From a virus, in the IMG/VR virus record IMGVR_UViG_3300049827_000022, positions 1 to 25,799 of that record: a stretch of 25,799 bases of DNA. The stretch is one strand, 5' to 3'. The notes beneath the pieces were generated by a model. It ran no database searches. It was not told the DNA's origin and saw only the letters and a program-made list of their open reading frames with translations. Below are positions 2,204 through 24,027 of the stretch, piece by piece (positions within the stretch are counted from its first letter, which is position 1; every line of letters starts with the position of its first letter). Both the position numbers and the translations under genes were made by a program.

Positions 2204-2560
2204 TTATTTGATGTTTATGGGTAATTTAGATGCGTTTCCGCTTATGTCTAGTAAAATTAAATCGTAAATGCCTGCTTCAGTTTTATCAAAACTGACTACA
2301 AGGTTGGATTCTTCAGCAGTTGCCGTAAATCCTTGCGCCTTTATAGGCTCAGATTGCCCTAGTTTAGACAATTGAAGCGAGTATTTAGCACCTATTGTTG
2401 TCTTTGCTTTAACGTGTGCCGTGTTATTTACTACCGAATAACCGATAATTGCATTGACCTGAGGGTTTTCTCCTAGTCCGATAGGCTCAATAACCACGAT
2501 TTGTGGCTCAGTACATGATGCAAACACCAGCAAAACCGTGAAGATTATTAAATTTCTCAT
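2204..2560 (-). CDS. Small lipoprotein
   Basis: A 118-residue protein with a lipoprotein signal peptide, MRNLIIFTVLLVFASC; C16 would be the lipidated residue (lipobox F-A-S-C). The mature part is beta-rich (NTAHVKAKTTIGAKYSLQL… GIYDLILLDISGNASKLP) and resembles an Ig-like fold. It is likely attached to the outer membrane. It overlaps the secreted protein gene by 4 nt and the next gene starts 1 nt after its stop, so it belongs to the same module. It could be a partner of the CsgG-like protein or an outer-membrane spanin component. Confidence 0.65.
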   Translation of the reverse strand: MRNLIIFTVLLVFASCTEPQIVVIEPIGLGENPQVNAIIGYSVVNNTAHVKAKTTIGAKYSLQLSKLGQSEPIKAQGFTATAEESNLVVSFDKTEAGIYDLILLDISGNASKLPINIK

Positions 2561-4323
2561 TGAAATAAATTAATTCCTAGCAATCTAATTGATTCAGTAT
2601 TAAGATTTATGCCTAATTGGTAGCCAGTTTTACTACTGGCATCCATAACTGGACTCACTTTAATAAACGTATTTAGGTCGCTTCCGTTATTAATTGAGCT
2701 AAACCTTAATTTGAAAGGTGTTAAAACCCCAGTAATAGGATTCTTAACATCCTTGTCAATCGATCCGAATTTAATCTTACCTTCTTTGTTATTCACAAAC
2801 GTGTACCAAGTGTTCGGTAATTCGTTTGTAAGGCTCTCAAATTTCAATTTGGTAGCATCGTATTCAAACTCAAATTGAAGCGCAGAAACGGCAAGCGATT
2901 TAGTATCAAGCGCAACAGGAATCTCTATCGTATTGCTAGTAATGGTTTGGCTTTTAATGCTTACGTTAATAGATTGAATCGGTTGCGTTGTATTGATTAG
3001 CAAGTTAGCTTGAGGCGAGCCTAGATTCTTGCGTAAAGAAGGAACTGCGTTAGTTGCAATCGTGCTTCCTATAATTACCTGCGATGAATGCGATCGGTTT
3101 ATATCACCTTCTAAAACGTATTTAAGTTTCAACGGTAAATTCTTTCCTATCTCTGAGGTTTTGAAATACACTACATTGCTTGCATCCTTCCAATTTGATG
3201 CGCTTAATCCGTTAAATGTTGAATCAGTAAACGTTGCAACTGGGATGTACATATCCGTTCCTGAACTATAATTAGCAGGTAAGCTAACAATTGCATCTAC
3301 TCCTACCGCTTGCGAGAATATCCTGACCACATCACCACCATCAAACCTCTTGTTTTTGTTAATATCAGATGCGTAATAGCCTGCACCAGTTATAATTGAT
3401 TGCCCTTTAAATGTGCCATCTAAATTCTGGGTATTAAACTCAGCTTGTGCGGTTGTAAAATCTGAAACCGTAACTGCTGAAGCGTGTAAATCTAGGTAGC
3501 TATCTGCGTTTAAACTATTATAAACTTTGTAAACCGTGTTAGGTTTTAGCTGGGTTTGGTCAATTGGAATTGTTCCATTACCTAAAGCATCCACTTTGTA
3601 CGTTGTTTTTCTTAACGTATCCTCAAACACCACACGATTGAGCGTAAGCCCATCAATGTTTGTGTTATTGTCTATCGTAGCCGTCACATATTTGGATGCA
3701 GTAGGATCTAAAAGAATAACGTTAGTCAATGGAGTTGTCATCTCGGTAGCACCTGATGAGCCGTTTTGATTAAACGAAGCCCCGAAGTTCATCAAGATTG
3801 GATTCCACGCAAAGCCTTGAGCAGTAGTCTTTAATCTAAAGCGCATCACTACAAGCCTATCTTTGCCTAAACCACCTTGAGCAATTGCCCAGTTAAGATA
3901 ATAGCGTAGGATTGTTTTACTGCCTCCTTGAGTAAAATTGTATTGCGCCCAATTGTAGTTAGTATTGCCGTTGCTTGTATTATTTTGTGCAGTTTTATTA
4001 AACGAATAACCGGGATATAAGAAATGTGATTGACTTATTTGTGAGCCTGCTGGAATGATACCACCATTGCCCATTGTGCCTGTATGATTTATCGATACAA
4101 AATCAAATGCCGTGTTTTGAAATTCAAAATCAAAATATAAAGAGCGTGATGATGTATTACTATTGCCATCTGCAAATACAACCACATCAAACAAATCGCC
4201 CTTGTTGATTACGTTGCCATCTAGATTTACATTCGTTGAATCGTTCTGAAAGTATAGCTTAATTGTTTGGCTATTAGCTGAAAGGCTAATTAATACTAAG
4301 GCAAAGGCGAGAAGATTTTTCAA
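2557..4323 (-). CDS. Secreted protein with cohesin/dockerin-like features
   Basis: A 588-residue protein with a signal peptide (MKNLLAFALVLISLSANSQ), cleaved probably before or near Q19. The N-terminal region 40-200 and the C-terminal region 465-588 both look like cohesin-type beta-sandwiches; the C-terminal one has IEIPVALDTKSLAVSALQFE, EYDATKLKFESLT and the closing GVLTPFKLRFS. In between is a dockerin-type calcium loop, SDINKNKRFDGGDVVRI: D320, N322, N324, D328 and D331 are at the expected 1, 3, 5, 9 and 12 spacing. A second, poorer loop is GDINRSHSSQV (406-416). It could be an exported adhesin or extracellular component. No T9SS C-terminal domain is evident. Coupled by 4-nt overlaps on both sides. 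Confidence 0.6.
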   Translation of the reverse strand: MKNLLAFALVLISLSANSQTIKLYFQNDSTNVNLDGNVINKGDLFDVVVFADGNSNTSSRSLYFDFEFQNTAFDFVSINHTGTMGNGGIIPAGSQISQSHFLYPGYSFNKTAQNNTSNGNTNYNWAQYNFTQGGSKTILRYYLNWAIAQGGLGKDRLVVMRFRLKTTAQGFAWNPILMNFGASFNQNGSSGATEMTTPLTNVILLDPTASKYVTATIDNNTNIDGLTLNRVVFEDTLRKTTYKVDALGNGTIPIDQTQLKPNTVYKVYNSLNADSYLDLHASAVTVSDFTTAQAEFNTQNLDGTFKGQSIITGAGYYASDINKNKRFDGGDVVRIFSQAVGVDAIVSLPANYSSGTDMYIPVATFTDSTFNGLSASNWKDASNVVYFKTSEIGKNLPLKLKYVLEGDINRSHSSQVIIGSTIATNAVPSLRKNLGSPQANLLINTTQPIQSINVSIKSQTITSNTIEIPVALDTKSLAVSALQFEFEYDATKLKFESLTNELPNTWYTFVNNKEGKIKFGSIDKDVKNPITGVLTPFKLRFSSINNGSDLNTFIKVSPVMDASSKTGYQLGINLNTESIRLLGINLFQ

Positions 4324-4835: not shown

Positions 4836-4960
4836 CGTCCCTGACCTTTATAACGTTTTGGTTTCTGTTCGTATTTGGAAAAGGCTCTTTTAGCCTTACC
4901 TTTTTTCTTTGTTCCGAATGAAATTTTTTGGTTGCCATTACCTGCTTTTGCCTTTGCCAT
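4832..4960 (-). CDS. Small basic protein (42 aa)
   Basis: A 42-residue very basic ORF starting MAKAKAGNGNQKISFGTKKK and ending KPKRYKGQGR; about one third of its residues are Lys or Arg. Its ATG overlaps the endolysin stop (TAATG) and its stop overlaps the next ATG (ATGA), so it is coupled on both sides and fills the gap exactly. A nucleic-acid-binding, ribosome-binding or virion DNA-associated role is possible. No family recognised. The overlapping frame with start at 4938 gives a less credible product and lacks this coupling. Confidence 0.65.
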   Translation of the reverse strand: MAKAKAGNGNQKISFGTKKKGKAKRAFSKYEQKPKRYKGQGR

Positions 4961-5808
4961 TATGCTAATAAATTATAGTATTCTTTAAAATGCTTTTGTC
5001 TGTCGGCAAGTCCAATTGTACCGCCATTTACTCGCTTAGTTACTGCCGTTACTACATCCATTGATGCACCTCTGTCGCAGATTGCCCATAGGTTATTACG
5101 CTTAAAGAAAAACGCTGCCGATGCTAAAGGGTATTTAGTTGCTACTAAATCAGGATTTTTAAGTATGTCTTCGCCTACGGTAGCATCAAACGCTCTATAA
5201 TTGTCCTTACCTGTGAGCTGGATATAGCCTCTTCCACGGAACGACCAACCCTCTCCTGATGCTTCATTGCCATTACCCATTCTTGATGAGTAAACACGGT
5301 TGGCAATCTTCTCTGGCTTGCGCTCGTATTGCATTGCCAAGTTTACATTTGTAAAATACTTGCGGAAAATACCTAACAATCCTTTTGCTGAATAGTTTAA
5401 GTTTTCACTTACTGCTCTAAAGCCTCCTGATTCGTGTCCGCATTGAGCCAAGAAGTGAGCTAGGCGCAAAGATGTAGTAATTCCAAACCTCGCTGCGGTG
5501 TCAGGTATTTGATTTATTACCGCTTGCGGAATATGTCCTACCAATCTATCTAATTTAAATCCGCTTGTGGGCACGATAGTTGGCTCTGGTTGAACGATAA
5601 CTTGCGGAGCGGGTACTTGTGTCACTTCAGCAAATAACTTGCTCCACGTTGCATCGCCTACAATGCCATCAGGTGTTAAGCCGTGAGCTGATTGCCAGCC
5701 CTTAACTGCGGCCTCTGTCTTTGGGCCAAATTTACCTATCGGATCGACTCCAAGTTTTACTTGAAGTTTTACGACATCATCCCCTGTTGATCCTACTCTT
5801 AAAAGCAT
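4960..5808 (-). CDS. Endolysin: PG-binding domain plus GH19-like lysozyme
   Basis: A 282-residue murein hydrolase. Residues 1-60 form a PG_binding_1 domain (LQVKLGVDPIGKFGPKTEAA… DGIVGDATWSKLF). A Pro/Val-rich linker follows (about 62-80). Residues 90-282 are a GH19 chitinase-like lysozyme, with probable catalytic E126 in LAHFLAQCGHESGGFRAVSE, then GWSFRGRGYIQLTGKDNY and RVNGGTIGL. Cleavage of the peptidoglycan glycan strand is expected. There is no signal peptide, so release through the holin is likely. The TAA stop shares one base with the ATG of the next gene. Confidence 0.9.
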   Translation of the reverse strand: MLLRVGSTGDDVVKLQVKLGVDPIGKFGPKTEAAVKGWQSAHGLTPDGIVGDATWSKLFAEVTQVPAPQVIVQPEPTIVPTSGFKLDRLVGHIPQAVINQIPDTAARFGITTSLRLAHFLAQCGHESGGFRAVSENLNYSAKGLLGIFRKYFTNVNLAMQYERKPEKIANRVYSSRMGNGNEASGEGWSFRGRGYIQLTGKDNYRAFDATVGEDILKNPDLVATKYPLASAAFFFKRNNLWAICDRGASMDVVTAVTKRVNGGTIGLADRQKHFKEYYNLLA

Positions 5809-16238: not shown

Positions 16239-17864
16239 TTATCCTAATGTCGCAGATTTTACGATATTTCTATCTAGTGCCTGCTGAGTAGTTACATCTG
16301 AAGATACAACGTAAGCCCTTACTGGTGTCTGCCCTTGCGCTCCGATTGTCTGTGCAATCTGATTAGCACCCCCAGTTCCTACAACGTTAAATGAAGGTGC
16401 TTGAGGTACTGAAGGATTTGAAACCGAGATACCTCCACCTGCACCCGAAGATTTGCCTGCTGATAAAATCCCTCTTGCTCTGTTTGCCGCACTTAAAACT
16501 GCGCCTATTTGAGTCGCATAAAATATAGGGAATGCAAACGCTGCCGCAGGCCCAGTTGCTTTTGCAGATTTTTGTGCAATATCTAAGCCTTGAACAAATC
16601 CTATTGCGGTGTTAATTGCAATCTCAGTTAGTGCAGCAGTTTTAGCGGCCGCAGTACCTTGTTCAAAGAATCCACTTAACGAACCGATTGCATTTCCAAC
16701 TGCTGAAGCGTACTGCAATTGAGCTTGTAATTTTACATCTAGTATTTTTTGGATATCGTCTCCTAGTTTTTTAAAATTATCTCGCGATATTTTAAGGTTT
16801 TTATCCTCATCATCTTTTGATTTTTTGTCAATCTCGCCTTGTTTGTTTGCTCTTTGAGCTTCTAATAAAGCATACAATCTATTTTTTTCTTTTCCATTTG
16901 TTTGAATTGCATCAATTTCTTCTTTTCTTCTTTTATACCATAAATTAAGTTTTTTCTGCTCTGTGTTTGCTTCTATATCTTCAAGCTCGGTATTGTATTG
17001 CTTTTCTAATTCAGCAATCTTTTTTAGATGCTCTTGGTATCTATTATATTCTTCAAGCAAAGATTGCGCATAATTATATAGATAATCATCGTTTACTTTT
17101 TCTTTTTCTTTTACTTCTTTTTTGTAAGTTTTAACTCTTTCCTTAGAATTTTTTGTTTCAGTTTTAGTTACGGTATCTGAGCCTGAGTTAAATCTTTTGT
17201 TTGCCTCCTTAAATTCTTCAACTGCTGAGTTCCAACTCCCAGTCAATTGTGAATACCCTTCTTTTAACGCATCAAAATCTAGCGTAAAAATTCCTTTTAA
17301 AATCTTACCTGCACCCATACCTACGTTTTTAACTAAGGTAAACAACGCAAATAAGCCTGAATAAAAACCTCCTACACCTTTAGCAATTAAAGGCAAGGCA
17401 CGCAATGCTAGATCAATAAAAGCATCAAGCAATGGCTCAAATACTTTCATAATCCCTTGAAGTATTTTATCGAAAGCGGCAAAGACTGGCTCAAGCTTTT
17501 TCATTGCAGTTTCTGATTTAGAGAAAGCAGCAACTAATCCACCAATTGCAAGCGTAATAATACCGATAACTGAAGCCTTTAAAACTCCATTAAAAGATGA
17601 AAATGTTTTTTCTGCACCTCTAATGCCTTTACCTAACACACCCAACGGCCCAGATGCGTTTTCTAAGTAACCTAAAAAGTCATCTGAGGTTGCGCTTGCA
17701 TCCTTAATCGCATCATCCATATCACGGATTTGTTGCGATATTCTATTAAACTCATCCGATCCAGCAGCGGTTTCTCTTAATTGCCTCTTTAGGGCTTTAA
17801 GGTTTTTAATTGTTGCCTCTGTGTTAGAGTTGATATTAATATCTACTTCGATATCCTTTGCCAT
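16239..17864 (-). CDS. Tape measure protein
   Basis: A 541-residue protein with the usual three parts. Residues 1-65 form a charged coiled coil (ATIKNLKALKRQLRETAAGS…). Residues 95-200 hold hydrophobic, Gly/Ala-rich segments (VIGIITLAIGGLVAAF, LFALFTLVKNVGMGAG). Residues 225-365 are a highly charged coiled coil, and the C-terminus is Ala/Gly-rich with another hydrophobic stretch. It sets tail length and is thought to enter the host membrane at DNA delivery. At the usual rough scaling of 1.5 Å per residue it predicts a tail of about 80 nm; no sheath gene was found, so a siphovirus is more likely. It is short for the family. Confidence 0.8.
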   Translation of the reverse strand: MAKDIEVDININSNTEATIKNLKALKRQLRETAAGSDEFNRISQQIRDMDDAIKDASATSDDFLGYLENASGPLGVLGKGIRGAEKTFSSFNGVLKASVIGIITLAIGGLVAAFSKSETAMKKLEPVFAAFDKILQGIMKVFEPLLDAFIDLALRALPLIAKGVGGFYSGLFALFTLVKNVGMGAGKILKGIFTLDFDALKEGYSQLTGSWNSAVEEFKEANKRFNSGSDTVTKTETKNSKERVKTYKKEVKEKEKVNDDYLYNYAQSLLEEYNRYQEHLKKIAELEKQYNTELEDIEANTEQKKLNLWYKRRKEEIDAIQTNGKEKNRLYALLEAQRANKQGEIDKKSKDDEDKNLKISRDNFKKLGDDIQKILDVKLQAQLQYASAVGNAIGSLSGFFEQGTAAAKTAALTEIAINTAIGFVQGLDIAQKSAKATGPAAAFAFPIFYATQIGAVLSAANRARGILSAGKSSGAGGGISVSNPSVPQAPSFNVVGTGGANQIAQTIGAQGQTPVRAYVVSSDVTTQQALDRNIVKSATLG

Positions 17865-21059: not shown

Positions 21060-21595
21060 TTTCCTTGTAAGTTAATATCTATTATTCTATCGACATCGAT
21101 TGCCACCTGCGCAGGCATTTGACCTTCAATATATTTTTTAAATCCTGCTTCGTATGGTTTAGTAAAAAACAAACTAGGCTTTATTCCCTGAGCATAAATT
21201 CGTTTCGCAATAATGAATCCAAGCGTTTTATAGCTTCCTTTTTTAAACTGCCCTTTCTCATCTCGTAGCCTTATTCCTTTCTTCTTTGCCCATTCCCCCA
21301 ACGGCCCAGCAGGCGGACGCTTATTAGTAAACATAAAGCGTGAGTTTGGTGCTTTCTGCTTTCCGTTTTTAACTAATGAAGGGAATGCACCCTTCACACC
21401 TTCATCTAAAAATTGACCGTAGTTTTCCATTCTGAATCCTACAATCGCATAATTATTTTCTGTTACTACTTCGCCCTTGATGCTATTATAAAGAGTCTTA
21501 GACACATTGTTTCGCCCCTTAGACAGATTCGCCCTTGCTTGCTGAATAACATAATTCTTATATTTCTCAAGAAGCTTGTAGCTTGCGTTTAGCAT
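21056..21595 (-). CDS. HK97 gp10-like neck/tail completion protein
   Basis: A 179-residue basic protein resembling the HK97 gp10 family of head-tail connector and tail completion proteins. The useful marks are a helical N-terminus with K/R residues, the segment YGQFLDEGVKGAFPS (about residues 57-71; compare the family's Y-x-x-F-x-E-x-G), and a C-terminal GIKPSLFFTKPYEAGFKKY stretch that is typical of the family's closing helix. It lies between the tail terminator candidate (7-nt overlap) and a large tail protein (4-nt overlap). Confidence 0.65.
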   Translation of the reverse strand: MLNASYKLLEKYKNYVIQQARANLSKGRNNVSKTLYNSIKGEVVTENNYAIVGFRMENYGQFLDEGVKGAFPSLVKNGKQKAPNSRFMFTNKRPPAGPLGEWAKKKGIRLRDEKGQFKKGSYKTLGFIIAKRIYAQGIKPSLFFTKPYEAGFKKYIEGQMPAQVAIDVDRIIDINLQGK

Positions 21596-22044
21596 ATTGT
21601 CATATCGTTCGCAACAATTACATCAAATGTAAGTGTCCAGCCTGCAATCTTATTTTCAAAGCGATCTGTGAATGGCTCTGCGGTTGGCTCGCTTGTTATC
21701 ATTACTTGACTAGAATACAAAGAGCCTCGCATTAAATCGGCTGAGAGTCTTTGAGCTAAAGCAAGGGTTGAGTTTAAAACATCCTGCTCATTATCGTTAC
21801 CGTTCCAAATATCTGTTATCTCTTCCTTAGAATCGTTTACTAAATCCATAAAAAGTATAGAAACGTTCATTGTCATTGTTACCTCGCCTAGTGTTGCGGT
21901 GTTTACGATGATGTGATTTAATGGGAATATCGTTTGCTTTGTTAAATCAACTGCAAAAATATCGCCTATCGTAACGGTGTTCACGAACGGTGTTGCCTTC
22001 AAGTAATTTTTTAATGTATTTACAACGTAGAAATATCCGTTCAT
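21589..22044 (-). CDS. Tail terminator/completion protein candidate
   Basis: A 151-residue soluble protein without signal or membrane segments. The start overlaps the TGA of the frameshifted upstream ORF (ATGA), and the stop overlaps the next start by 7 nt. An N-terminal helix (YFYVVNTLKNYLKATPFVNT) is followed by alternating strands and a C-terminal region rich in beta residues (KIAGWTLTFDVIVANDM). Size, fold pattern and position next to the gp10-like gene fit a tail terminator (gpU-like) or joining protein. No diagnostic motif was recognised. Confidence 0.45.
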   Translation of the reverse strand: MNGYFYVVNTLKNYLKATPFVNTVTIGDIFAVDLTKQTIFPLNHIIVNTATLGEVTMTMNVSILFMDLVNDSKEEITDIWNGNDNEQDVLNSTLALAQRLSADLMRGSLYSSQVMITSEPTAEPFTDRFENKIAGWTLTFDVIVANDMTIC

Positions 22045-22786
22045 CGAATTGTTTTTTTAAGTAATTTATTTTCTAAATCTATTTTCTGCTTTTCAAATGT
22101 TAAAAACGTTAAACATTGATTAAGCGGAAGTCTGGAGATTTCATCAAATCGTCGGACATCTCCTTGAGCCAGTGCGTAAATTGATGAATACCAGCCCCAC
22201 CGTTTTCCGAATTGTGCTTGTTCAGAATAGTCTGAATCTGCGGATTCTCCTCCAAATAGGTCAGTGTACTTTTCAGTAACTCGTTGCCTAAATGATAAAA
22301 AAAAACCCTTGAGGCAAGTACAACATCTAGCGGTGCATCAAGCATTTTCTCAGCGTAAAAATTAGTTCCCTCGTAGGATTCAATTGTATACTTATCTTTT
22401 AGCTTCGTTATTATCGGCCGATACATTACCGCCATAGAGCGATGCAAATCTTTCCAATCAGTAATGTAGTTGTCTAAATCCATATACTCGCCTTGTGAGA
22501 TGTCATCAAGGTTAGGAATGAATCCGTACTCAGTACCGTTAAGGTTAAACCTATTTTTAAACGGTGGTATCTTTTCAAATAACTTGTTTATGGTAGTTAC
22601 AATTTCTACGATTTGCTTTCGTTTAAACTGACTTACATATTTTAGCTCAACGTTGCAGAATATCTCAATCATTTTGTGATGCAAGAAATCGGATTCCTCA
22701 TTCTGCTCTGCAATGTTCATAAATTTAATGTACTGAGATAGCTTAATTTCGCTCAAATCAGTTGGAATTGTTATCGCTAACTTCAT
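22041..22786 (-). CDS. Tail assembly chaperone, long product by -1 frameshift (gpGT-like)
   Basis: From 22786 the ORF reads normally for 163 residues to V161-F162-F163, encoded over a run of nine T. Shifting back one base there opens a second frame of 85 codons, giving a 248-residue fusion. That frame has no ATG, GTG or TTG start of its own and a TGA lies upstream, so only frameshifting can express it. It reads as real protein: …FGKRWGWYSSIYALAQGDVR…, then a charged coiled-coil tail ending KKTIR. Its TGA overlaps the next gene's ATG (ATGA), the coupling seen throughout this array, and it fills an otherwise empty 64-nt gap. The arrangement matches lambda gpG/gpGT-type tail chaperones, which bind the tape measure protein. 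A single-base homopolymer sequencing error cannot be excluded. Confidence 0.7.
22109..22786 (-). CDS. Tail assembly chaperone, short in-frame product (gpG-like)
   Basis: The 225-residue product of frame 0, mostly helical and lacking membrane segments or a signal peptide. A central stretch (ISQGEYMDLDNYITDWKDLH then MAVMYRPI, about residues 96-124) is the most family-like part. Residues 164-225 (FYHLGNELLKSTLTYLEE… to RLINV) are encoded in the region that the -1 frame also encodes. The start codon lies 5 nt after an ACGTTTAT element. It sits at the head of the tail gene block, immediately after the terminase genes. The chaperone assignment rests mainly on the frameshift architecture; if the T9 run were misread, this ORF would be an artefact beyond residue 163. 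Confidence 0.65.
   Translation of the reverse strand: MKLAITIPTDLSEIKLSQYIKFMNIAEQNEESDFLHHKMIEIFCNVELKYVSQFKRKQIVEIVTTINKLFEKIPPFKNRFNLNGTEYGFIPNLDDISQGEYMDLDNYITDWKDLHRSMAVMYRPIITKLKDKYTIESYEGTNFYAEKMLDAPLDVVLASRVFFYHLGNELLKSTLTYLEENPQIQTILNKHNSENGGAGIHQFTHWLKEMSDDLMKSPDFRLINV
22297..22305 (-). other. Slippery T9 run, candidate -1 frameshift site
   Basis: On the minus strand the sequence is AGG GTT TTT TTT TAT, nine T in a row, which contains a T TTT TTT heptamer in the correct phase for -1 slippage. After slippage the next codons are TTA TCA TTT AGG, and the new frame stays open for 85 codons. No downstream pseudoknot was resolved by eye. Confidence 0.65.
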
Positions 22787-22818: not shown

Positions 22819-24027
22819 TTAGTACACGAAATACTGCCCTTTGTTGGGATTAGACAAGTGATAGAACACGTTGTAACGTATGGCATCGATTGCGTGATTG
22901 TAATTATCGATAACCAATCCAGACTTTTTATCTGAGTAGGTGTAATTGTTAAGTTCCTTTGCAATGTTTTGTGAGTTAGGTTCTAAAACTATTTCAAAAT
23001 CCTGCATTAATGCTAGGCCAGCCGTTATACTTCCTGCTCCTTTCTCGGTTGCTACGATATTACAACGCTGACTTGATAGCTCTGCGATTAGTCTAGGCTC
23101 TGCGCTATCGGCTACAATTAACGAGCCTCCGCATACTTGCTTGTTTATTACCGCAATTTCTGAGGTCGTTAGCTTTGGTTTGTAAAGATGCTCCTTAACA
23201 TAAATCTTGCGTTTGTTCTTATCAATGGCCACCTCGACTAGCGTTGTCGGATCGATAGAGAATCCAAAGTCTTGCCCAAATGATGTTTGCAAATTGTCAG
23301 GGTTAAAATTACCAAAGCTCCAATTAGTAAACACAACACCTTCGGCTTTGTCTAGCCAACCCCCAAGAATTTGGTGCTTATATTTCTTTGGATTGTATTG
23401 CTTTATCCTTTCAATTTCATCTAGAAATGATTGTTCTAGGTGCTCAATGTTATCCTCGAAGGTGGTATGAATATAAGTAACATTATTCTTCACACCATTA
23501 AAGCCTTCATCTATTCCAGCCGATTCAAAGAAACGCTGGTAAATCCAATGCTCTTTTGTTGCAGGGTTTAAAATTAGAATCACTCTATTCTGAACACCCT
23601 TCTGTCTAATAGATAAGTTTATCTTATCAAATGTTGCCTCATCTGTTAGCTCCTCAGCTTCATCTAGTATCCAGGTTGTAACACCTTGCAATGATTTAAG
23701 GTTTGCAGTTTGATCGCCTGATGAAGTTCTAATCCCTTTGAAGATAATTTCAGAGCCTGATGTTTTATTTATTATTTCCGACTTTGTTATTTCAAAGTGA
23801 TGGCCTGCTTCTAATAGCTCTATTTTCTCTTGAAACTCTGGAATGATAGATAGGTGTGCAGATGTCATTGTCTGCCTTGTAAATAGAATCTTATGCCCTT
23901 TCTCAAATGATAAGAGGCTGGCAAATGTGCCAACCCCAAAAGATTTAGATGAACCACGACCTCCTGTAATAATAAAGAATCGTGTTGTATTTCCTAAAGC
24001 CTGATATTTTTTGTTTAAAATTATCAC
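22819..24027 (-). CDS. terL: Terminase large subunit (Terminase_3/PBSX type)
   Basis: The ATP-driven DNA packaging motor and headful/cos nuclease, 402 residues, typical for the family. The Walker A motif is TGGRGSSKS (residues 21-29) and Walker B is ILDEAEE (120-126). A coupling motif ILNPATKEHW lies at 152-161. The RNase H-like nuclease domain shows its three expected acidic residues at D253 (GQDFGFSIDP), D307 (VADSAEP) and D381 (NYNHAIDAIRY). Both domains look intact. The start overlaps the terS stop by 4 nt. A 32-nt gap containing an AACGTTTAT element separates it from the next gene. Confidence 0.95.
   Translation of the reverse strand: MIILNKKYQALGNTTRFFIITGGRGSSKSFGVGTFASLLSFEKGHKILFTRQTMTSAHLSIIPEFQEKIELLEAGHHFEITKSEIINKTSGSEIIFKGIRTSSGDQTANLKSLQGVTTWILDEAEELTDEATFDKINLSIRQKGVQNRVILILNPATKEHWIYQRFFESAGIDEGFNGVKNNVTYIHTTFEDNIEHLEQSFLDEIERIKQYNPKKYKHQILGGWLDKAEGVVFTNWSFGNFNPDNLQTSFGQDFGFSIDPTTLVEVAIDKNKRKIYVKEHLYKPKLTTSEIAVINKQVCGGSLIVADSAEPRLIAELSSQRCNIVATEKGAGSITAGLALMQDFEIVLEPNSQNIAKELNNYTYSDKKSGLVIDNYNHAIDAIRYNVFYHLSNPNKGQYFVY

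Follow-up and report, generated by a model that had tools for sequence, protein, structure and literature searches.

Does a run of nine T inside a phage structural gene, with two frames open beyond it, give one gene two protein endings and, if so, is it the ribosome or the RNA polymerase that slips there? The question is raised by a gene of the window (i.e., the whole stretch of 25,799 nucleotides analysed here, from the IMG/VR virus record IMGVR_UViG_3300049827_000022), whose structural genes sit on the minus strand. Frame 0 of this gene (22786-22109) encodes 225 amino acids, and its codons 161-164 comprise the T9 run, the only one on the minus strand of the 25.8-kb record, with the heptamer U_UUU_UUU standing in frame. 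Beyond the run, frame 0 continues for 62 residues, while the -1 frame, which is open from 11 codons upstream of the run and in the window lacks any ATG, GTG or TTG, continues for 85 (LSFRQR...FGKRWGWYSSIYALAQGDVR...), carrying a conserved F..(K/R)WGWY motif. Its TGA (22043-22041) overlaps the ATG at 22044 with which the next gene starts, and the gap behind the frame-0 stop that it fills spans 64 nt (22045-22108); the predicted trans-frame product would have 248 residues. Several of these features, from the position of the run to the absence of a start in the -1 frame, the ATGA overlap and the length of both endings, had been put forward in a preliminary description of this DNA, whose coordinates and numbers proved correct on recheck. 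In AF2 models, the common part (residues 1-170) is predicted with pLDDT values mostly of 80-94 and the -1 tail as an all-alpha domain (pLDDT 84), and the last ~33 residues of the frame-0 tail are predicted to be disordered.

Features of the recoded gene and its immediate neighbours in the window
Feature	Coordinates	Strand	Remarks
Shared N-terminal part of both products, Met1-Phe163	22298..22786	-	Predicted alpha/beta domain; phrog_32199 (function unknown)
T9 slip site, frame 0 GTT TTT TTT TAT, in-frame U_UUU_UUU	22297..22305	-	T9/T10 in 464/465 loci
Frame-0 C-terminal tail, 62 residues + stop, 225-aa product	22109..22297	-	Purifying selection, NS/uS 0.375
-1 C-terminal tail, 85 residues + TGA, predicted 248-aa trans-frame product	22041..22298	-	SN/uS 0.25
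Putative dual-coding overlap, both frames read	22109..22298	-	Substitution classes
Next gene, 151 aa, phrog_30964 (function unknown), ATGA overlap with the -1 stop	21589..22044	-	
Terminase large subunit, directly upstream	22819..24027	-	PHROG and Pfam terminase

Is this arrangement a property of the gene or of one assembly? Homologous loci were collected in six scans of IMG/VR and one scan of GTDB genomes which, with the record of Nonlabens phage P12024S (from the phages collection) and the window included, add up to 465; some of them come from one contig, and 356 are distinct by sequence context. Lineages, defined as clusters at <85% nucleotide identity, number 160. With a single exception, the run is found at the same codon of every locus as T9 or T10, and runs of 7-8 or more than 10 T are absent from the slip site in all 465. 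At the level of lineages, the run, which occurs in three reading phases, is T9 in 130 and T10 in 30, never shorter or longer. The scans were biased toward FF/FFLSF at the slip site, a bias countered by three of them keyed mainly on the downstream WGWY, in which the run was still always of 9-10 T; since these three were keyed well downstream of the slip site, the conservation is not an artefact of the search. The chance that the same amino acids were encoded with a run of at least nine is ~0.2 per lineage, and other A/T runs of at least nine are found in these loci about once per 46 kb (13 in 602 kb). Judged from these sequences, the conservation of the run is far beyond chance. The exceptional locus (L293, ~2500) has a deletion across the site that removes the run, and in it frame 0 goes on in frame and the -1 tail cannot be reached.

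The -1 tail was found in every lineage, at ~85 codons, its end always coinciding with the next gene's start or lying close to it. Frame-0 tails measure ~50-80 codons in nearly all lineages and 18-27 in the P12024S clade, for which reason the frame-0 ending is not universal; this shortening is all that emerged when homologues devoid of one of the two C-termini, which the preliminary description had named as evidence against its reading, were sought. P12024S and P12024L, both Nonlabens phages, are the only isolated relatives found. In the former (3001-3695 of the extracted locus, i.e., 23136-23830 of P12024S), gp38 and gp39 (phrog_32199, phrog_38404) are homologous to the window gene (32% in frame 0, 28% in -1) and carry T9 at the same codon but, unlike the window gene, they have a frame-0 tail of 27 codons and stand in the annotation as two separate hypothetical genes, where one recoded gene should be given.

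How much of the overlap is read in both frames was addressed with 93 independent sequence pairs, classing the mutations in the overlap by their effect in each frame. Relative to neutral, the rate is 0.375 (NS/uS, 0.33-0.42) for changes silent in -1 that alter frame 0 and 0.25 (SN/uS, 0.22-0.28) for changes silent in frame 0 that alter -1, the value for ordinary nonsynonymous changes upstream being 0.20 (uN/uS). At the level of sequence evolution, this shows both C-termini under purifying selection; that being so, the overlap is dual-coding except in the P12024S clade, and the earlier suspicion that the region codes twice is borne out by the constraint on both frames.

Several explanations would dispense with one or both of the endings. 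The run might be a sequencing or assembly error, or the site of phase variation or gene decay, with one frame really continuous: T9 homopolymers are indeed prone to errors and mutation, and L293 does have its deletion. However, the same run and the same two frames are met again across hundreds of independent assemblies, as well as in the isolated P12024S and P12024L, no run length ever makes the -1 frame continuous, and both frames are under purifying selection, so that this cross-lineage conservation is taken to rule error or decay out, with practically no probability left to it. Hardly better placed, and highly improbable as well, is the view that the -1 ORF starts internally and is an overlapping gene in its own right, which is how P12024S is annotated, with gp39 beginning at an internal ATG. 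A -1-frame ATG precedes WGWY in only 8 of the 160 lineages (ATG or GTG in 25, and neither in the window), and the -1 frame is conserved directly from the T run (FFLSFR); the other 152 lineages have no internal ATG, and this view was rejected. And might only the -1 tail be functional, the frame-0 tail being its passive shadow in what would be an ordinary gpG/gpGT pair with no early stop in the short form? The few codons left after the run in the P12024S clade would agree with this, as would the predicted disorder of the final ~33 residues, the weak constraint in some bins (e.g., 0.68 at codons 32-40) and the NGxGI motif of frame 0, which is forced by WGWY in frame -1. Nonetheless, apart from NGxGI, the part that is indeed a shadow, the substitution classes make a passive frame 0 unlikely: its constraint peaks over the first 16 codons (0.11-0.23), changes stay under the neutral rate all along, and random synonymous recoding of the -1 protein leaves frame 0 open to the observed length in ~1% of trials per sequence.

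What is proposed instead is that one phage gene gives rise to two proteins, presumably both made, with a common 163-aa N-terminal domain and two different C-termini that share ~190 bases, one read in frame 0 and the other in frame -1. Slippage at the run of 9-10 T, most likely during transcription, would switch between them. RNA polymerase would insert one U (U9 to U10) in part of the mRNAs, from which ordinary translation would produce the 248-aa form, whereas the unslipped mRNA would produce the 225-aa form and the loss of one U a protein ending ~4 codons past the run. The pair would most likely resemble gpG/gpGT of lambda, i.e., a tail-assembly chaperone whose short and long forms are made at a fixed ratio. 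Taken as a whole (one gene, two endings, mostly transcriptional slippage at T9-10 and a gpG/gpGT-like role), we lean slightly towards this explanation.

As to which machinery slips, ribosomal and polymerase slippage predict the same junction protein (VFF-L). Slippage of the ribosome into -1 requires just seven in-frame T's. In the 160 lineages, the numbers of T's flanking the two in-frame TTT codons (5',3') are (2,1) in 125, (2,2) in 20, (1,2) in 5, (1,3) in 1 and (0,4) in 9, and none has (1,0), (1,1) or (2,0), each of which would leave the full slippery heptamer intact. All six lineages with a single 5' T have at least two 3' T's, a state shared by 20 of the remaining 145 (Fisher p 1.5e-5, with no correction for phylogeny, these six phase-2 lineages not being all phylogenetically independent). 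The run length thus appears to be held at nine or more whatever the reading phase or the need of the heptamer, which is suggestive given the few phase-2 lineages. Likewise, the heptamer never varies (e.g., to U_UUU_UUC or A_AAA_AAG) in the 160 lineages, no compensatory base pairs were found, Shine-Dalgarno-like elements are not enriched upstream (9% vs 12.8%), and downstream RNA structure was not detected in a model of pseudoknot-free folds, hairpins included (mean z -0.03 and -0.24, vs -0.74 in control windows). Unstimulated heptamers shift ~0.3% at best in E. coli (PMC4066793), and nine A/T is a slippage-prone length in many bacteria (PMC1088944; PMC5009743).

It is for these reasons (a run never of 7-8 T although the amino acid constraint would sometimes permit it, T's that trade sides with a total of at least nine, no conserved hairpin, Shine-Dalgarno element or compensatory pair, and the weakness of unstimulated heptamers compared with nine A/T) that transcriptional slippage probably fits better. 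The rival reading is a programmed -1 ribosomal frameshift on U_UUU_UUU, similar to that of lambda G/GT, with the extra flanking T's as accidents of protein constraint. The heptamer, of the X_XXY_YYZ type, is present in frame in every lineage, which counts against the polymerase, ribosomal slippage being compatible throughout; shifting at U_UU.U_UU.U is measurable in E. coli (PMC4066793), all well-described tail chaperones rely on ribosomal frameshifting (PMC5009743; PMC10885494), and the protein accounts in part for the flanking T's, with a hydrophobic residue before FF and Tyr/Trp after. Nevertheless, a heptamer-driven shift accounts poorly for the absence of 7-8 T runs and for T's that switch sides, and we regard it as possible but rather doubtful, while both processes may act. 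Hence, of the -1 frameshift described in the preliminary description, the conserved -1 trans-frame extension stands, the ribosomal mechanism becomes one of two, and the homopolymer length points to slippage in transcription. The conserved +1-frame stop, no more than 10 nt from the run in 97.5%, was considered as a sign of polymerase deletions and dropped, since the two coding frames largely dictate it.

With genes that use transcriptional slippage (Shigella mxiE and spa13, Thermus dnaX and some IS transposases), the window gene shares a run of at least nine A/T within the coding sequence and the dispensability of an RNA stimulator. Slippage yields the longer product in mxiE and the shorter one in dnaX. 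Unlike them, the present case is a phage structural gene with both downstream frames long and selected, in which slippage is deduced from sequence. The likeness to lambda gpG/gpGT and other tail-chaperone frameshifts lies in the short and -1-extended forms of one gene, the small C-terminal extension, the neighbourhood of structural genes and the -1 direction (here as seen in sequence and evolution). However, the two endings overlap here over 50-80 codons, with both tails selected, whereas in those systems frame 0 ends soon after the slip site; the slip site is an invariant T9-10 in place of varied heptamers; the gene has the terminase on one side and a tail/neck-like gene on the other, and does not directly precede the tape measure; and it has no sequence similarity to a curated chaperone family.

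What function, then, can be assigned to the pair? The gene order is conserved: in 144 of 148 lineages the gene immediately downstream is a homologue of the 151-aa gene, and in 120 of 149 a homologue of the terminase lies upstream. A putative tape measure ORF, read from sequence at 16239-17864, lies ~4.2 kb and four genes downstream, which agrees with the earlier remark that the gene is next to the terminase and far from the tape measure. No match was obtained to any curated Pfam or NCBIfam family, PDB returned only noise by sequence or Foldseek, and PHROGs list the family as of unknown function. The fold search in BFVD brought up many uncharacterised phage proteins and one weak match (E 0.029, prob 0.97) bearing the annotation “Tail assembly chaperone protein”, and 12 of 67 members have weak matches to phrog_166, “tail protein” (best E 1.3e-4). 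From the architecture, the neighbours and these weak fold and PHROG matches, a tail-assembly-chaperone (gpG/gpGT-like) function is plausible, and to this extent the name of tail chaperone given earlier may hold, although without counterpart in Pfam, NCBIfam or PDB. Because the gene is found between TerL and the 151-aa gene, and not in the lambda-type position between the major tail protein and tape measure genes, it is called here tail-assembly-chaperone-like, short of a proven lambda-type member. The fold match to R9VW65 of Flavobacterium phage 6H is weak (TM ~0.3); this protein appears to lie in a tail region, where it was placed by length match only.

Recoding in tail chaperone genes ranks with the best-conserved traits of tailed phages and is generally attributed to the ribosome. 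Searches of open-licence papers turned up neither this family nor a tail chaperone with transcriptional slippage. The family appears to attain the same -1 logic by means of a strictly conserved homopolymer, together with real dual coding of both endings. That a large phage group, probably of Bacteroidota, sets its tail-chaperone ratio by transcriptional slippage at an invariant T9-10, with both frames coding over 50-80 codons and up to three C-terminal forms, seems to us as open to acceptance as to doubt. In any case, whether phages can swap ribosomal for polymerase slippage could be tested cleanly at this locus, as the isolates P12024S and P12024L exist. It also bears on annotation: the P12024S gene has been entered as a pair of unrelated hypothetical genes, and genes of this kind could escape frameshift finders built around short overlaps or heptamer motifs.

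Some minor observations accompany the survey. One 33.6-kb contig (IMGVR_UViG_3300043447_000083) contains two different homologues (L010 and L017) near opposite ends, and may be either a chimera or two joined phages. Elsewhere in the window, all on the minus strand, 1199-1906 encodes a 235-aa secreted protein, an unusual phage cargo that presumably resembles a lipoprotein of the CsgG/curli-export type and adjoins a low-complexity, SKSE-rich protein (12-1202); 2557-4323 encodes a 588-aa secreted protein with a cohesin/dockerin-like look, possibly a host-surface or moron gene; and 4960-5808 combines a peptidoglycan-binding domain with a GH19-like lytic domain, being likely the endolysin.
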